From positions 1-20,509 of IMG/VR virus record IMGVR_UViG_3300021085_003264: DNA of 20,509 nt, one strand, 5' to 3'. The DNA is from a virus. A program made the position numbers and the translations under genes. Below are positions 27 to 20,509 of this stretch, piece after piece; positions within the stretch are counted from its first letter, which is position 1; each line of letters starts with the position of its first letter. Under the pieces are notes generated by a model. It searched no databases. It was given only the letters and a program-made list of their open reading frames with translations, and was not told the origin of the DNA.

Positions 27-1022
27 ATGATAGCAAACTTGTGTGCATACAAGTACCCCACGATTTATGGTAATTGGGCAGAAATGTATTGTCACATTAC
101 ACTTGCCTTGAGCAATTTAGGATATACTGTAAATAGAAGTCCTTTAATTGATGCTCCTAGTCTAGAGAAAATGACTATCAAAGGTATTATAGATAATCCC
201 GAAGATCTATACATTTATAATCATACCTTTATAGAAGAACTACGGCAACAAGAGTTGGTACGTGGTCCTAACATCCTCATACTTAAACCTACTGCACCCA
301 CTCCTTCTCATTTTACAATAGACAGGATAGGTTACGCAGCATCTTCTTCTATCACATATACGAAACCTGATTACGAAAATTATGACAGTACGTCATTCTT
401 TCAAAGGGATGTGCCTTCTTATATTAGCAATAGAGAGTCTAAGTGGTCAGATAGAGAAGAGTTTCAATTTTTGAACGAACCGTTACACGTACCAGATAAT
501 CACGTATTGATATTAGGCCAGATGCCTGGCGATGAGACAGTAACTAAAATGTCTTTCGGTAATCACTGGGATAAGTTTTGTCAGATAGTAGATGAACTCA
601 AAGGTACGCAATCATTAGTTGTTAAGGTACATCCAACCTTAAAAAGAGAGGCCGAAGACTGGGGTTTCTATGAAAATAAAATCAAAGAATGGCGCTCTTC
701 TGGTATCATAGTATTTGAAGATTTCGAAAGTCTGTATGATATTCTACCGAAAACAAAAGTTGCAATACTAGAAAACAGCACATCGGGTATAGAATGTATG
801 ATGCATGAAGTTCCCGTCATTTCGTATGGATATCCGGAATATCATTGGGAGACTAAAGACCTTCGTCATCTTTGTCAAGTGAGAGATTTTGTTAATAACC
901 TATCTTGGTATAACAAAGAAAGGGCTAAAAGTTTCGTTGCATGGTACTGCCAACAGTATCAATGTTATGATTATGAGAGCACTGTGAGGCGACTTACAGA
1001 ACTTTTATCAAATAACGGTTGA
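27..1022 (+). CDS. putative glycosyltransferase-like protein (capsule-synthesis type)
   Basis: This 331-residue protein has the C-terminal layout of capsule polysaccharide synthesis (KpsC/KpsS-like, Capsule_synth) proteins. A strand 'VLILGQMPGD' lies near residue 160, followed by 'LVVKVHP' near residue 198, and then 'ENSTSGIECMMHEVPVISYG' near residues 250-270. The last motif resembles the nucleotide-sugar-binding end of GT-B folds, where a Ser/Thr-Gly-Glu stretch precedes a 'PVI.YG' strand. There is no signal peptide or membrane segment, so it should be cytoplasmic. The N-terminal 150 residues are unlike anything I recognise. An AGGA box at 17-20 sits six bases before the ATG. The gene ends just before a late promoter, so it belongs to the preceding transcription unit, although read-through is possible. 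It might glycosylate a virion or host surface component, but the substrate cannot be told. The family assignment rests on motifs only. Confidence 0.6.
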   Translation: MIANLCAYKYPTIYGNWAEMYCHITLALSNLGYTVNRSPLIDAPSLEKMTIKGIIDNPEDLYIYNHTFIEELRQQELVRGPNILILKPTAPTPSHFTIDRIGYAASSSITYTKPDYENYDSTSFFQRDVPSYISNRESKWSDREEFQFLNEPLHVPDNHVLILGQMPGDETVTKMSFGNHWDKFCQIVDELKGTQSLVVKVHPTLKREAEDWGFYENKIKEWRSSGIIVFEDFESLYDILPKTKVAILENSTSGIECMMHEVPVISYGYPEYHWETKDLRHLCQVRDFVNNLSWYNKERAKSFVAWYCQQYQCYDYESTVRRLTELLSNNG

Positions 1023-12961: not shown

Positions 12962-13260
12962 GTTATGGACTAGAAGTATATAGTGAAAACGATGTAATAG
13001 TATGGTCTAGTGGCATAAGGACCACTAATATAGGTGCATTTCAATCGTTTAGTCTATCACCTAACCAAGAACTATTTGTTTCTTGCGCCAATGCAAATGA
13101 CAATAGTAAAATAAAGATTACCTTTATATCGGGAGCGTTTACTGTATTTCCAACATATCTTGGAATTCAAATAATTAGCAGAACTTCTTCAGGATTTACT
13201 CTGAAAGCTTCGACAAGCTTGGGATCTTCGGGAACCGTTATCGCAATGAGGGTATCATAA
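12958..13260 (+). CDS. small virion-associated protein, MSYGLEV family type
   Basis: This 100-residue protein is almost entirely beta-type sequence, with no membrane segment or signal peptide. It begins MSYGLEVY, a start I associate with short proteins next to tail-fibre or tail-tip genes in many phages, none with a firm function. It overlaps the fibre gene stop by four bases (ATGA) and its own stop overlaps the next start by one base (TAATG). The AGG at 12946-12948 lies nine bases upstream. A segment 'FSLSPNQELFVSCANAN' parallels 'LTSALSPGDLLFVKNPRN' in the next gene, so it may be a free-standing version of that protein's N-terminal domain. A small tail tip or fibre cap is possible. Confidence 0.7.
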   Translation: MSYGLEVYSENDVIVWSSGIRTTNIGAFQSFSLSPNQELFVSCANANDNSKIKITFISGAFTVFPTYLGIQIISRTSSGFTLKASTSLGSSGTVIAMRVS

Positions 13261-15176
13261 TGGCACACGGCTTACAAGTTAATGGTAGTGACTCTGGCGG
13301 AGACTTTTTGGTAGCAGACTCGAATCTAAGTCTGGTTAACCTACAGGTAGTCGCGCATGGTACACAAGATCATGAAATAAATCTAACTAGTGCTTTGTCA
13401 CCAGGCGACCTTTTATTTGTTAAAAACCCAAGAAATTCAACTGGAGGAACCAGTTTTCCACAACACACCTTTATATGGAATGATGGTTTTGAACGGCAAA
13501 CCTATACTTCTGGTATACCTCAGTGGTTTGATTGCAGGTTATCTAATAACGATAAAAAAATTAACTTTCACGGCAATATGTATCACCGATTTGAAGGCTC
13601 AGCCTTAAACGCAAATCTCAGACTCTATAGGGGTTGGGAAGTCTATTTTGACTGGTTTTTGGTTCGTAGCGTACAAAAAGTATTTTCTGACAACTTGGAA
13701 AATTCTGGAGACTATGGACTACAAATACTAACTGAAGGTGGACAAATCGCATATGACTCTAGAGGAGCAATAAACGATAAGACGTTCTCAATTAATGGGT
13801 CTATACCACCAACTGGTAACTGGGCAGGGAGAGATTCAAGAACCACCTTTACTTTCGGTGAAGCTGGCAGTTATTGTAATATTGAATGGACTTCTATATC
13901 ACAATTTACTGGCGTGGAACCTAGAATCCTAGGACTGGGAGTATCAAGTACACAGGCACAAGTATATGCTGGGTTTATTGATAACGAAATGGAAAACATC
14001 CAGTGGATTGGAGTTGGGGCCGCGCTGTTCTCTGCTAAACTTTTTACCGGACAACCTTCTGGAACTGATACAACTGGAGGATCTTCGGGGTCAGACGACA
14101 GTGAAGGTGATGGAACATCAACTACTCTTAGTGGTTCCATGCAACTTGTAGATTCGAGTGCATTTATGATTGAGGGTAATACTAATGATACTATTACCTA
14201 CAATGCGTCTACTAGCTCAACGACAGACCCGTTCTATATGAAAGTCTATAGAAATTCAGGTACAGTCGGTAGTGGAGAACTACAAAACACTAGCACTTCG
14301 TGGACTGGGTCTACAGGTACTCTAACTATAGGGGTTGATGATGATGCAGATTCAGAGGTAGGTTATCAAGGAGAATCCTTTACGATAAAGTTAAAGCAAG
14401 GATTGATAGCAGATGATGCCTCAGGTAACAATTTCATCTTGGATGAAAAAACATTTATCCTATATGACGACGACGGAGGAACGACCCTTGTAGGTGCATC
14501 TTCTCAGAAATACACCATAGATCATGATGCTACGTCTGCAACTGTACAGTTCAGTATTTCGACATTGGGTCTGGGTAATTCTACTATTAATGCTAGGATC
14601 AGATATGCAAGTGGATCAGTTTCTATAAAAACTTTCACTATGACTAATAGCACAACCAAAAGTGTTGTTATGACCGGAAACTTACCTTTTGAAGGGTTTT
14701 CATCAGATTATGTTATGCAAGTCTGGAATGGAGTTACTTGGGCAGATAACGGGTCTCCTTTTACTATCGAAAGAGAAGAAGCACCAAGTACTGGTGGTGG
14801 AAGTAACCCAACAAGTAATCCAATCACGACTCCAGCAAATCAAAACATATTATCAAGTGCAACTAGCGCGACAGTAACATTCTCAAATCTAACTAGTGGA
14901 GAGAAACTAAGAGTAGTTAGGGCAGACAGTCCAACCAACGTTGCAATGCCTGAGTTTACTATAACTGCTTCTCAGATGAACAGATCCTTTTTAGCTTTCT
15001 TACCGAATCAGGGATCTACTAGAACTTACACTCCACAAGTGAAACTTCAGGGAGCGACGACTTGGACAAGTAAGCCAGGTGGTAACTTTACCGTAACCAG
15101 AAATGAACCTGCTCCTGGCGGTGGCAATAATGGATTCCCACCAGCTGGCGATGGTGCTGGAAACCCAGACAATTAA
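13260..15176 (+). CDS. probable fibre or adhesin protein with beta-sandwich-like repeats
   Basis: This 638-residue protein starts MAHGLQV, like its small neighbour. The N-terminal half (to about residue 265) is aromatic-rich and ends in a Gly/Ser/Asp linker near 'TGGSSGSDDSEGDGTS'. Then come at least two or three immunoglobulin-like or Calx-beta-like beta domains. One includes 'VDDDADSEVGYQGESFTIKL' and 'KTFILYDDD', acidic loops that suggest calcium binding. The C-terminus is a Pro/Gly-rich tail ending 'GDGAGNPDN', similar to the tail of the 2103-residue protein. GAGGG at 13248-13252 gives a good ribosome binding site seven bases before the ATG. The layout suggests a surface-exposed virion adhesin. 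I do not recognise a named family for the whole protein, and the domain assignments come from sequence pattern only. Confidence 0.72.
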   Translation: MAHGLQVNGSDSGGDFLVADSNLSLVNLQVVAHGTQDHEINLTSALSPGDLLFVKNPRNSTGGTSFPQHTFIWNDGFERQTYTSGIPQWFDCRLSNNDKKINFHGNMYHRFEGSALNANLRLYRGWEVYFDWFLVRSVQKVFSDNLENSGDYGLQILTEGGQIAYDSRGAINDKTFSINGSIPPTGNWAGRDSRTTFTFGEAGSYCNIEWTSISQFTGVEPRILGLGVSSTQAQVYAGFIDNEMENIQWIGVGAALFSAKLFTGQPSGTDTTGGSSGSDDSEGDGTSTTLSGSMQLVDSSAFMIEGNTNDTITYNASTSSTTDPFYMKVYRNSGTVGSGELQNTSTSWTGSTGTLTIGVDDDADSEVGYQGESFTIKLKQGLIADDASGNNFILDEKTFILYDDDGGTTLVGASSQKYTIDHDATSATVQFSISTLGLGNSTINARIRYASGSVSIKTFTMTNSTTKSVVMTGNLPFEGFSSDYVMQVWNGVTWADNGSPFTIEREEAPSTGGGSNPTSNPITTPANQNILSSATSATVTFSNLTSGEKLRVVRADSPTNVAMPEFTITASQMNRSFLAFLPNQGSTRTYTPQVKLQGATTWTSKPGGNFTVTRNEPAPGGGNNGFPPAGDGAGNPDN

Positions 15177-15690: not shown

Positions 15691-15726
15691 TATCTTATAA
15701 GTATAGTAATAAAATAATTTGAAAAA

Positions 15727-15759
15727 TGTGCATAGACCCCGTTTATGCACATTTTTTTT
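15727..15759 (+). terminator. rho-independent terminator
   Basis: An eight-base perfect stem (tgtgcata at 15727-15734, tatgcaca at 15744-15751) with a nine-base loop is followed by eight Ts (15752-15759). Five As upstream (15722-15726) can extend the stem by pairing with the T tract, so it may also work on the opposite strand. It closes the unit that ends with the chaperone gene. Confidence 0.9.
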
Positions 15760-15761
15760 GT

Positions 15762-15769
15762 TATAAATA
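15762..15769 (+). promoter_or_regulatory. T4-type late promoter (TATAAATA) for the giant repeat gene
   Basis: An exact late consensus TATAAATA sits three bases after the terminator T tract and about 50 bases before the GTG start at 15821. With the terminator it makes a clean boundary, so the repeat gene has its own late transcript. A leader of about 45 bases would contain the palindrome at 15797-15808. Confidence 0.82.
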
Positions 15770-15820: not shown

Positions 15821-18800
15821 GTGTCAGCATCTAGTATACCACTAAAAATTAAGAATACCGATGGTGACCTACAGGAATTCACTCCAGCGCAAGAGATGTA
15901 TCTTGCGGTAAAAGTGGGTGAAGCACTTGCAGAGGCCTCTGCTGGTGATGTCGGTGACATCAGTCTAACCAATGGTACAAACATCGGTTCATTTGTAGAT
16001 ACTTTCTACAACGAACCAGCGGGCACACACCCGATGTCTGCTATCACTGGCACTAGTGTAACCACGACCTTGAAACAGGTTGGTGGTTCTGCAAGTGAAT
16101 CTGGTTCTGATTTTGCCCGTCCTGTCGGTTATTATGCAGATAATTCTAATCCTGGCTTCTACGAAATGGTAGACTCAGACTTAGATAATCTCACAAATCG
16201 TGCACTGAAGAATGTGGAGACCCTAGGTCTTCAGGGTGCATATGAACTTTCAACGTCCTCGCCAGGCAGTGATTGGACCAAACACATCGATGGTGTGTTC
16301 TCCGATACTCATGGTGACGGTACAACAACTCAATACCACATCTGGAAGAAAGTTACTTTGGCAACACCACCATCCGGTGTTACCACTACTCGACCAGTTG
16401 CAACCGACTATGATGGTTCTTCATCATTCAGCGGTTTCAAAGAAATGTCAGACGCGGAAATCAAGTACACCCTTGGTCAACGTGCTAAATCACTTCGAGC
16501 AACAGCAGGTGCGATTGGTTCATACCAGTTGCGTTCATCTGCACAAGGTGCTCCAACTCTAGCAGGTACATGGGTACCACGAGGTTCTGCCTCTAACACC
16601 CGTCGTACTATTGTCGATGTAGCATATGCACGTACACGTAACTCAGCTTACACACGTACAAGAATCTCTGCATATACTCGTAACCGTATTTCAACATATA
16701 CTCGTAACAGTGTAGATACTTTCTCACGTACTTTTGTTGGAGAATATACGGGAGCATATTCACGTGACTTCGTAGGAAATTACGCACGTGACTTCATCGG
16801 TAACTATGCAAGAACTCGCGTTTCATCATATACACGTAATAGACTAACTGCATTTACTGGTTATTTTGCCGGTACTTACAACCGTTCACGTGTTTCTACA
16901 TATGTTCGAAACCGTATCACACCATTTACTGGTACATTCTCACGCAATAGAGTTTCTTCTTATACTCGTGGCCGTGTATCAACTTACTCAGGTACTTACT
17001 CACGCAACCGTAGTTCTTCTTACTCAGCAGACTACACTCGCACACGCGTATCAGCATACACCGGAACTTACTCAGGAACTTATTCCCGTAACCGTGTATC
17101 TGCATATGCCGGTACCTATTCACGAAACCGTGTATCAGCTTATGCACGTACTAGTACTAGAACTCGTACATCTGCTTACTCAGCAGACTACACCCGTACT
17201 CGTATAACTAACTATACCCGTGACCGTGTAACTAACTTCGCAGGCGTTTTCTCTCGTGCACGTGTATCTTCATACACACGTAATCGAGTCACTAACTTTG
17301 CCGGTAACTTCGTAGGAAACTATGCTCGTGGATTTGTGGGTAACTACTCACGTGGATTCGCAGGCAACTACTCCCGTGGTTATGCTGGTGATTATGTTGG
17401 TAACTACGCTCGTGTTTCTACTCGTACATCTACAAGAACTCGATATTCTGCATACGCACGTACATCAACACGTACTCGTTACTCTGCATATACTCGTGAT
17501 CGTGTCACTAACTTTGCCGGTAACTTCGTAGGAAACTATGCGACTACCTTTACTGGTGACTTCGTAGGTAACTATTCACGTACATTCACAGGTAACTATG
17601 GTGGTGATTTTGTTGGTAACTACGCAACTACCTTTACTGGTGACTTTGTTGGTAACTATGCACGTGGATACGCTGGCAACTATGCTGGTGATTACGTAGG
17701 CAACTACTCACGTGACCGTGTAACTAACTTTGCTGGTGATTTTGTTGGTAACTATGCAACAACTTTCACAGGTGACTTTGTTGGTAACTATGCTCGTGGA
17801 TATGCTGGCGACTTCGCTGGTAACTACGTTGGAGATTACGCAAGAACTTCTACACGTACTCGTTACCAAACATATGATTATACTCGCACGTCGACGCGTA
17901 CGTCTACTCGTACATTAACTTACACTCGTACACTGTACTATGCTGGAAACTATGTAGGCGACTATGCTCGTAACCGTGCATTCTCATATGTTGGAGATTA
18001 CTCACGTAACCGTGCATTCTCATATGTCGGTAACTACGGACGTACTCGTACTGGTAACTATACTGGTAACTATGGACGTACTCGCGCCACTAACTACGCA
18101 GGCAACTTCGTAGGGAACTACGGACGTACTCGTGCTGCTTCATATGTTGGTAACTATGCTCGTACATCTACACGAACTCGTAATGCAACCTATACTGGTA
18201 ACTACGGACGTACATCAACCCGTACTCGTTACTCTGCATATTCTCGTGATCGTGTAACTAACTTCACTGGTAACTTTGCTGGAGATTACTCACGTAACCG
18301 TGCCGCGACATTGGACTATACAAGAGTATCTACAACGGGAGCTCCATATGTTGGTAACTATTCAAGGACTAGCACAAGAACCTCAGCCGTAGCATCAAAC
18401 TACACTCGTAGTGTAACGTCGACTCGTACTTCAACTCGTACTTCTGCTGTTACAACTTCTGGTGGATGGACATCATACTTTGGTGTGGCTTCAAACCCAA
18501 TCTTCGCTGGTGACTCCGCTGGTACGAACATCTACTGGAAGCGTGAATCTGAAGGTGGACTGCACATGCACTCAGTCTTCTGGTTATCAGAAGGTTTCAA
18601 GGGAATGACAACTACTACCTCAAGTGGTACTACTAGTATGACTCTTGGTGGAGTAAGTTATGGAAGAGGTACCTTCCTTGGTTACCGTAGCATTTGGGCA
18701 GTATATAAAGTAAGACGATACCAAACAGGTGGAACTACTAACTATACTGGCAACTTCGCTGGTAACTTCACTGGTACTGCAACATACTCTCGTACCACTA

Positions 18801-20509
18801 ACTATACTGGTAACTACGTAGGAAACTACTCACGTACTCGTAGTTCAACGTTCTACTATACTGGTAACTACACTCGTGGTGTAACATATACTGGTAACTA
18901 CGGTCGTACTCGTGCAACTAACTATGCAGGCAACTTCGTAGGTAACTACGCACGTGGATATGCCGGTAACTTTGCTGGAGATTACTCACGTAACCGTGCA
19001 GCATCATATGCTGGTAACTTCGTAGGAGACTACAGTCGTACACGTGGAGCATCATATGCTGGTAACTACTCACGAGATCGTGTAACTAACTTCACTGGTA
19101 ACTTTGCTGGAGATTACTCACGTAACCGTGCATTCTCATATGCTGGGGATTATTCTCGTACACGTACTGGTGCTTACACTGGTAACTACGGTCGTACTCG
19201 TACTGGTAACTATACTGGTAACTATGCAAGAACAAGTACTAGAACTTCAACCAATACTGGTTACTACACAAGAACTGGCTATTATGCTGGCGATTATGTC
19301 GGTAACTATACTCGTACTCTAGGATACGCTGGTGACTATGTCGGTAACTATGCAAGAACAAGTACTAGAACTTCTACACGTACTCGTTACTCTGCATACG
19401 CAAGAACTCGTGTAACTAACTACGTTGGTGACTTTACTCGCAACCGTGTAACTAACTTTGCAGGCAACTTTGTCGGTAACTACGCAAGAACTTCAACTCG
19501 AACTTCTACACGTACTCGTTACTCTGCATACGCAAGAACTCGTGTAACTAACTACGTTGGTGACTTTACTCGTACTTCGACTCGTACTTCGACTCGTAAC
19601 CGTGGCTCTGCTTATGCAAGAACTCGTGTAACTAACTACGTTGGTGATTTCACTAGAGATAGAGTAACTAACTTCGCTGGTAACTTCGTAGGCAACTATG
19701 CACGTGGATACGCTGGTGATTTTGTTGGTAACTATGCTCGTGGATATGCTGGCGACTTCGCTGGTAACTATACTGGTGAGTATGCTCGTACTTCAACACG
19801 TACTCGTTACTCTGCATACGTACGTAACCGAATTTCGGTATACACTCGTAACCGTAGTTCTGCATATACCCGTGACCGTGTAACTAACTTTGCTGGTGAC
19901 TTCACTGGTAACTACTCTAGAACTTTCTCTGGTCAATACTCACGTAACTACGCAGGTAACTTTGTAGGTGATTACGTTGGTGACTTTGCTGGTAACTATG
20001 TTGGTAACTATGCAAGAGACTTCGGTGGAAACTACGTAGGAAACTACACACGTGGATTCGCAGGAGAATACGTAGGTAACTACTCACGAGGATTCGCTGG
20101 TGAATATACTGGTGCTTACTCTGGAACTTACTCACGTAACTTCGGTGGAAACTACGTAGGAAACTACGCACGTGGCTTCGTTGGTGAGTACACAGGAACC
20201 TACAGCAACACATTCACTGGTAACTACTCACGTGGATTCTCTGGTCAATACACAAGAGATTTCGCTGGAGACTTCACTGGCAACTATGCAAGAACGTTTG
20301 CTGGAGATTATGTTGGTGAGTACGCTCGTGACTTCGTAGGTGACTTCGTAGGTAACTACTCACGCGACTTCGTAGGTAACTACTCACGTGTCCGTGTATC
20401 TGCTTACTCAAGAATCCGTAGTTCTGCATACTCCGGTACTTACTCACGTGATCGTGTATCTACATACGTAGGTGACTTCACTGGTAACTACTCACGCGGA
20501 TTTACTGGT
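15821..20509 (+). CDS. giant tetrapeptide-repeat virion protein (partial, open at right edge)
   Basis: The frame from a GTG at 15821 stays open for 1563 codons to the window end. The GTG is preferred because GAGAG precedes it by eight bases and the encoded 'SASSIPLKIKNTDGDLQEFT' matches how I recall related structural proteins of marine T4-like phages starting. The first ATG, at 15896, would remove this segment and has no spaced ribosome binding site. Residues 1-268 form a head with 'NIGSFVDTFYNEPAGTHP', 'GSDFARPVGYYA' and an internal duplication around EM.D. Residues 269-878 and 975-1563 are tetrapeptide repeats such as YAGN, FVGN, YSRG, STRT and RVTN, split by a globular island at 879-974. 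Inside the repeats all positive charge is Arg, and I see no Lys, Cys, His, Met or Trp. It probably forms a long fibre or a sticky surface layer of the virion. It has its own late promoter. Confidence 0.85.
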   Translation, partial: MSASSIPLKIKNTDGDLQEFTPAQEMYLAVKVGEALAEASAGDVGDISLTNGTNIGSFVDTFYNEPAGTHPMSAITGTSVTTTLKQVGGSASESGSDFARPVGYYADNSNPGFYEMVDSDLDNLTNRALKNVETLGLQGAYELSTSSPGSDWTKHIDGVFSDTHGDGTTTQYHIWKKVTLATPPSGVTTTRPVATDYDGSSSFSGFKEMSDAEIKYTLGQRAKSLRATAGAIGSYQLRSSAQGAPTLAGTWVPRGSASNTRRTIVDVAYARTRNSAYTRTRISAYTRNRISTYTRNSVDTFSRTFVGEYTGAYSRDFVGNYARDFIGNYARTRVSSYTRNRLTAFTGYFAGTYNRSRVSTYVRNRITPFTGTFSRNRVSSYTRGRVSTYSGTYSRNRSSSYSADYTRTRVSAYTGTYSGTYSRNRVSAYAGTYSRNRVSAYARTSTRTRTSAYSADYTRTRITNYTRDRVTNFAGVFSRARVSSYTRNRVTNFAGNFVGNYARGFVGNYSRGFAGNYSRGYAGDYVGNYARVSTRTSTRTRYSAYARTSTRTRYSAYTRDRVTNFAGNFVGNYATTFTGDFVGNYSRTFTGNYGGDFVGNYATTFTGDFVGNYARGYAGNYAGDYVGNYSRDRVTNFAGDFVGNYATTFTGDFVGNYARGYAGDFAGNYVGDYARTSTRTRYQTYDYTRTSTRTSTRTLTYTRTLYYAGNYVGDYARNRAFSYVGDYSRNRAFSYVGNYGRTRTGNYTGNYGRTRATNYAGNFVGNYGRTRAASYVGNYARTSTRTRNATYTGNYGRTSTRTRYSAYSRDRVTNFTGNFAGDYSRNRAATLDYTRVSTTGAPYVGNYSRTSTRTSAVASNYTRSVTSTRTSTRTSAVTTSGGWTSYFGVASNPIFAGDSAGTNIYWKRESEGGLHMHSVFWLSEGFKGMTTTTSSGTTSMTLGGVSYGRGTFLGYRSIWAVYKVRRYQTGGTTNYTGNFAGNFTGTATYSRTTNYTGNYVGNYSRTRSSTFYYTGNYTRGVTYTGNYGRTRATNYAGNFVGNYARGYAGNFAGDYSRNRAASYAGNFVGDYSRTRGASYAGNYSRDRVTNFTGNFAGDYSRNRAFSYAGDYSRTRTGAYTGNYGRTRTGNYTGNYARTSTRTSTNTGYYTRTGYYAGDYVGNYTRTLGYAGDYVGNYARTSTRTSTRTRYSAYARTRVTNYVGDFTRNRVTNFAGNFVGNYARTSTRTSTRTRYSAYARTRVTNYVGDFTRTSTRTSTRNRGSAYARTRVTNYVGDFTRDRVTNFAGNFVGNYARGYAGDFVGNYARGYAGDFAGNYTGEYARTSTRTRYSAYVRNRISVYTRNRSSAYTRDRVTNFAGDFTGNYSRTFSGQYSRNYAGNFVGDYVGDFAGNYVGNYARDFGGNYVGNYTRGFAGEYVGNYSRGFAGEYTGAYSGTYSRNFGGNYVGNYARGFVGEYTGTYSNTFTGNYSRGFSGQYTRDFAGDFTGNYARTFAGDYVGEYARDFVGDFVGNYSRDFVGNYSRVRVSAYSRIRSSAYSGTYSRDRVSTYVGDFTGNYSRGFTG
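16625..18454 (+). repeat. tetrapeptide repeat array, block 1
   Basis: About 150 tetrads encoded by 12-base units run from residue 269 to 878. Early units are mostly of the YTRN-RVSA type. Around 17290-17860 runs of FVGN, YARG and YAGD dominate. Near 17860-17930 and 18360-18450 runs of STRT occur. Synonymous wobble differences between copies are frequent (tac/tat, gca/gct, tca/tct), so the pattern is kept at protein level. Confidence 0.93.
18455..18742 (+). other. non-repeat globular island inside the repeat protein
   Basis: Residues 879-974 lose the tetrad pattern and contain residues absent from the repeats: Trp (GGWTSYF, IYWKRE, FWLSEG, SIWAVY), His-Met-His, Lys and Met. Strands such as 'GLHMHSVFWLSEGFKG' and 'TSMTLGGVSYGRGTF' suggest a small beta domain. 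It lies between two repeat arrays and could be a knob, a receptor-binding domain or a chain-register domain. No family is recognised. Confidence 0.75.
18743..20509 (+). repeat. tetrapeptide repeat array, block 2 (continues past edge)
   Basis: This is the second array, residues 975-1563, resuming with YTGN after the island. To about 19900 it mixes Gly-type tetrads with STRT, RYSA and RVTN. From 19920 it becomes richer in Gly-type tetrads with acidic or amide ends (FAGE, YVGN, FSGQ, YARD). It is still repeating at the last base of the window, so the full length is unknown. Confidence 0.93.
19368..19572 (+). repeat. 73-bp perfect direct repeat pair within block 2
   Basis: Bases 19368-19440 and 19500-19572 are identical over 73 bases, offset by 132 bases (44 codons, 11 tetrads). 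A shorter third copy of the distal part starts near 19617 with some synonymous changes. The offset is a whole number of tetrads, so recombination between copies would keep both frame and register. Confidence 0.9.

Follow-up and report, generated by a model that had tools for sequence, protein, structure and literature searches.

A giant protein encoded at the end of a viral genome fragment carries four-residue repeats in two arms, which mirror each other about a central non-repeat domain. That domain and the mirror symmetry, both unseen in a preliminary description of the same DNA, are the main finding of this work. The shaft is shown here, at the level of the amino acid sequence, to consist of two equal-length arms paired in antiparallel orientation, residue i with residue c − i, through a complementary pattern of side chains. 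It is quite likely that the protein is a late-expressed tail fibre whose shaft forms a giant antiparallel β-hairpin; the fibre would probably be a trimer, and the turn of the hairpin would carry a rapidly evolving tip that binds the receptor.

The putative fibre gene, its setting and its relatives

The window, that is, the whole stretch of DNA analysed (20,509 nucleotides), is the entire viral metagenome record and represents a genome fragment. The fibre gene lies on its plus strand (15821..20509), where a GTG start opens a frame of 1563 codons that runs to the contig end, so that the uninterrupted frame of at least 1563 codons claimed previously is borne out. From residue ~263 onwards, aromatic residues recur four apart (of about 240 gaps, 144 measure 4 residues and 44 measure 8), and identity autocorrelation reaches 0.20–0.30 at lags that are multiples of 4, against ~0.04 at odd lags and a baseline of 0.105. 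Since the peaks fall at multiples of 4 only and Pfam returns no match, the period is indeed unlike those of collagen (3), pentapeptide (5) and RTX (9) repeats. Of the ~300 tetrapeptide units described before, the period of 4 is real, but the units are not uniform and the chain has five parts: first a head of 262 residues, then the outgoing arm, a domain of ~95 residues that lacks the repeat and interrupts it, the return arm and, just past the contig end, a short, conserved C-terminus. Near residue 680 the tetrads shift phase by 2, and near residue 1150 they shift back, symmetrically about the non-repeat domain. The features of the gene and its surroundings are as follows:

13260..15176, plus strand: neighbouring 638-aa virion protein, shaft-free here; a tetrad shaft is inserted in it in the sister phages L115 (1627–5976), L059 and L060
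15211..15690, plus strand: tail fibre assembly chaperone, directly upstream of the fibre gene (PF16778, E=1.5e-19); same position in phage C48C1
15722..15759, plus strand: inverted repeat followed by a T-run, an intrinsic-terminator-like end of the chaperone gene, recognised from the sequence (minus-strand self match 15722–15756)
15762..15769, plus strand: T4-type late promoter TATAAATA, 52–59 bases 5' of the GTG
15821..16606, plus strand: head/anchor, residues 1–262; its last two modules are related, and the final one is split by the shaft and apparently completed by the C-terminal strand
16613..18448, plus strand: outgoing shaft arm, residues ~265–876, tetrads and octads
18449..18736, plus strand: putative tip domain at the turn, residues ~877–972, fast-evolving
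18737..20509, plus strand: return arm, residues ~973–1563, complementary to the outgoing arm with a mirror sum of 1848 (0-based); the contig ends ~41 codons short of the expected stop

The genes upstream encode a gp8-like baseplate wedge (phrog_438), a DUF4815 giant protein, tail-fibre-type proteins and the fibre chaperone; a late gene among tail genes, next to a fibre chaperone, is the setting of a T4-like tail fibre. The late promoter motif is found twice in the window against 1.27 occurrences expected and is thus not rarer than chance there; among relatives, 50 of 56 fibre genes have a NATAAATA box in the 120 bases preceding them, usually 40–60 bases before the start. A T4 portal is present on the contigs of two of three relatives, and the window fibre belongs to a T4-like, Kyanoviridae-related phage. 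No psbA was found in 8 records, and a cyanobacterial host is therefore not supported. A capsule polysaccharide synthesis-like gene (window 27–1022; PF05159, no PHROG match) adjoins the baseplate genes.

Searches of IMG/VR with the head as query returned 28 loci, and those with the C-terminus 74; the set of relatives comprises 66 complete, distinct tetrad-bearing frames, and the 61 used exceed 800 aa and include 54 with distinct heads. The closest relatives are 98–100% identical to the window protein over the first 293 residues, and the intact genes among them (1585–1639 aa) end in a stop, so the missing stop in the window reflects the contig end only. A full length of ~1604 aa, with ~41 codons missing, follows both from the best relative and from the mirror rule. 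Compared with close relatives, dN/dS is 0.12–0.20 in the arms and 0.05–0.19 in the head, and the tip is nearly saturated. The only true homologue in GenBank is a 3347-aa protein of phage C48C1 (Kyanoviridae; WJE88074.1), annotated as hypothetical and sharing the gene order. Judged from the arm dN/dS and this annotated homologue, the fibre gene is translated and under selection.

The window protein matches nothing in Pfam or PHROGs, and neither it nor the shaft matches PDB chains by sequence, in keeping with the earlier view of an undescribed repeat type. The kinship formerly suggested with repeat proteins of marine T4-like phages survives for one record, C48C1 (39.5% identity). The 63 matches in Synechococcus phages are short; the one examined, in S-RIM2, arises from low-complexity sequence in a different protein, whose repeats are of the GNVTGN type, and was rejected as a relative. 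One match in a cellular genome lies in a 142-kb contig of a Sphingobacteriales MAG, which is probably a phage contig. A 336-aa mini version (L034/L035, 9821–10831, on a 235-kb contig) consists entirely of Y-x-G-x tetrads, ~seven per arm. Two tandem tetrad-fibre genes per genome occur in L101, L106, L107, L091, L098, L112, L116 and L024, each with its own mirrored shaft, for which support is strong in most and weak in some, e.g., L112_5787.

Mirror pairing and coupled arm lengths

In most members of the family, the mutual information of positions i and c − i peaks at a single sum per protein. In L008, the closest relative, 617 consecutive pairs lie at one sum, gap-free; in L027, L028 and L003, which carry large one-sided inserts, the mirror register needs a gapped alignment. 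Set antiparallel, the arms are complementary: on the aromatic face of the window shaft, R:R pairs number 0 against 21.7 expected, R:G pairs 80 against 33 and Y:Y pairs 48 against 17.8, and the share of R:G, 0.277 for the true sum, exceeds both that of the next best slide (0.189) and the median (0.109). Y:Y pins recur mostly every 4, 8, 12 or 16 residues with a small vocabulary between them, in which RFG|SRR alone accounts for 535 of 1611 cells. At the sum c+2, Arg faces Tyr or Phe in 561 of 1562 cases and R:R is again absent, these two sums being the only even offsets at which R:R is zero. Together, the c and c+2 signals are those expected from a direct and one diagonal neighbour of a twisted antiparallel ribbon; mutual information leaves the two sums indistinguishable as the direct register.

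When the window is scored held-out, with a matrix built from L019 and L021 only, the mirror alignment reaches 381; shuffling the return arm by tetrads lowers this to 79 ± 12 (z=24.4), and shuffling in 16-residue blocks to 151 ± 14 (z=16.8). For held-out relatives, scored with a matrix built on four close ones, z is mostly 10–60, and about 2–7 in several short or divergent shafts, with the parallel control near background; in the 336-aa mini version of L034, the mirror z of 1.6 is not significant for so short a shaft.

These scores bear on the possibility that the shaft is a parallel triple-stranded fibre of the β-spiral or β-helix kind, in which each arm would fold on its own repeat along an onward-running chain and the mirror would be a by-product of repeat homogenisation. 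Many phage fibres are trimers of this type, and some codewords are self-complementary, so that unrelated arms also exceed shuffles (179 for outgoing against outgoing and 236 for return against return, compared with 381 for the true pairing). Nevertheless, the parallel alignment stays at background (26.5 against 381), zero R:R is confined, among even offsets, to the true sum and c+2, and matched, equal arm lengths would not be expected of such a fibre; this reading is improbable.

Arm lengths provide a signal of another kind. In pairwise alignments, indels between the window and L015 amount to 12, 16 and 30 residues in the first half and 30, 16 and 12 in the second, and those between L019 and L021 to 176 in the first half and 156 + 20 in the second. 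Since these indels are mirrored about the central domain, the lengths of the two halves vary together. When tip BLAST, and not the pairing, defines the boundaries, the outgoing and return arms show a length correlation of r=0.992 across a range from 425 vs 436 to 712 vs 706; the two arms differ by no more than about ten residues in 12 of 15 proteins and by no more than 29 in any of them. Homologous site pairs that swap R:G for G:R were sought and none was found; the covariation evidence is thus that of coupled length and code, not of site-by-site swaps. In L027, a ~170-aa domain within one arm bulges out and the register is intact on both of its flanks.

This ~170-aa globular domain (L027 residues ~1259–1425) has no Pfam match; many members, among them L028, L090, L102, L105 and L003, carry it within the return arm, with 47–68% identity between most copies.

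Proposed hairpin topology, tip and architecture

A hairpin has to be weighed against an antiparallel homodimer, in which two head-to-tail chains would pair i with c − i and the non-repeat domain would lie at the midpoint. Both arrangements obey the same sum rule, and mirror statistics alone do not separate them. However, in L112 and L116 (875 aa) the tip domain is absent and the mirror centre holds only a ~9-residue Gly-rich turn, GGGKGGNAY. Moreover, L115 has a homologue of the neighbouring 638-aa protein (E=5e-25 for one half and 4e-19 for the other) in which a tetrad shaft of ~925 residues replaces ~22 residues; the shaft was inserted as a unit, and thus its ends lie together, entering and leaving at one point. 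In the fibre itself, the third module of the head resembles the second, and adding the C-terminal 24 residues raises the match to 42.8 vs 37.3 ± 0.9 for shuffled columns, a value attained in 1 of 60 shuffles. The shaft therefore appears, on this comparison, to be inserted in a loop of the third head module, with the C-terminal strand completing that module. A dimeric fibre anchored at both ends would also bury its variable domain. The Gly-rich turn, the L115 insert, the split head module and the one-arm inserts with register kept together favour the hairpin, and the homodimer is quite unlikely.

At the turn, residues 902–967 are predicted to form a six-stranded all-β domain, with pLDDT 84–93 in blocks and low confidence in the arm stubs of the same fragment (one GenBank row was left out of the alignment); Foldseek found no match to it in PDB and BFVD at E<=0.001. 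For the full-length relative L056, AlphaFold2 with 23 sequences gave pLDDT 31 and pTM 0.28, and the shaft was not modelled. The tip is the most divergent part of the protein (pN 0.46–0.65 vs 0.05–0.16 in the arms). The best match of the window tip is that of L120, at 58% identity, despite an L120 head only 52.6% identical, and phages closer than L120 have tips more divergent from that of the window. This pattern fits tip exchange and would suit a tip that binds the receptor. Several of the tips of L104, L102, L112 and L105 share a Gly-Lys-Gly-Asn-like loop (GGKGGN, GSKGGN, SKTGNT).

In the proposed hairpin, the chain would exit the base domain, extend ~600 residues outward as a β-strand, form a small β domain (the tip) at the turn and return, its last strand finishing the base domain. 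We infer a hairpin length of roughly 200 nm (617 pairs × ~0.33 nm). One face of the strands would present Tyr, Phe, Arg and Gly, held by the Y:Y pins, and the other the small or polar residues A, V, T, S, N and D. Between pins, Arg could stack over Gly, Ser or Phe of the opposite strand and beside a diagonal aromatic, producing a cation–π zipper. By analogy with other phage fibres, three such hairpins might join with their small-residue faces inward to form a six-stranded needle. The tip would then contact the host receptor, the arms would set its reach and hold the register, and changes in arm length would be tolerated mainly if made in both arms.

More generally, the shaft may well be a protein analogue of a complementary duplex, in which a side-chain code zips hundreds of pairs of one 1600–3300-residue chain in exact register, so that the shaft is portable between loops of unrelated virion proteins and symmetrically extendable, and its tips are replaceable. 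The code would rather probably consist of Y:Y pins and cells such as RFG vs SRR, GFG vs TRR and G vs G.

The preliminary description had envisaged either a very long fibre or a Tyr/Arg-rich adhesive coat. The T4-like tail gene context upholds the long fibre; the coat is not supported, as the Tyr/Arg/Gly pattern is explained by the strict cross-strand complementarity of the chain halves. A disordered Tyr/Arg/Gly-rich sticky coat would share its composition with low-complexity adhesive proteins and would agree with the low AlphaFold2 confidence, but a strict phase across hundreds of residues and a gapless 617-pair register are unexpected in disorder, and such a coat is very unlikely. The probability that the mirror is an inverted DNA repeat or an mRNA hairpin is negligible: inverted duplication can yield mirror symmetry in a gene, but no result here supports it, the arms are under purifying selection at the protein level, and base complementarity at the mirror position (0.216) is below the mean of other offsets (0.253), which rules this candidate out.

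If the hairpin is true, the self-complementary shaft with its readable pairing code would add a new principle to the design of long protein fibres, in which register, length and tip position are predictable from sequence alone. It would explain how phage fibres lengthen and swap tips without breakage, provide a template for designed nanofibres, and make giant "hypothetical" genes of marine phages recognisable as receptor-binding fibres.

Comparison with known systems

No description of a tetrapeptide-repeat or out-and-back phage fibre of this build was found in the open-access literature. The C48C1 protein WJE88074.1 shares the head, a mirrored shaft (940 pairs, R:R 0), a tip and the gene order, and differs in its longer arms and in the several globular domains that interrupt its return arm. 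In WSXWS-type ladders of cytokine receptors, alternating aromatic and Arg side chains are stacked on one face of a β-strand; these are, however, short motifs of a single domain, without a cross-strand code along a fibre, and homology is not claimed. T4 gp5 and other fibre shafts are likewise long β-structured phage shafts with short repeats, and the intertwined part of the gp5 C-terminal triple β-helix, which has an octapeptide repeat, is a three-start helix of three chains, but mirrored complementary arms are not described there (PMC3004832).

The closest structural counterpart would be the long tail fibre of T4. Its gp37 tip is described, in PMC9659904 and PMC12724248, as a six-stranded antiparallel β needle (PDB 2XGF; Bartual et al. 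2010), about 15 nm (150 Å) long (PMC3004832). Both would be antiparallel β needles of T4-like long tail fibres, as the sequence suggests for the tetrad fibre, and the variable tip of the tetrad fibre may bind the receptor as the far-end domain of gp37 does. In gp37, three chains each go out and back, the last strand rejoins the base domain, and the needle holds iron via HxH motifs. An out-and-back antiparallel chain would likewise be indicated for the tetrad fibre by its mirrored arms, its portable insert and its split base module. In contrast to gp37, the tetrad shaft has hundreds of pairs per arm and a Tyr/Arg/Gly pairing code, and instead of HxH iron motifs there are 2 His in residues 263–1563. 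Comparison of the gp37 C-terminus with the alignment A2 by hhalign gave a probability of 0.05%, that is, homology was undetected. The C-terminal strands are similar (...YIVRLA in gp37 and ...TLYVRVA in the tetrad-fibre family). With neither a sequence relation nor the His signature, the shaft is not placed in the gp37 family, but it probably acts in the manner of a gp37 needle of much greater length.
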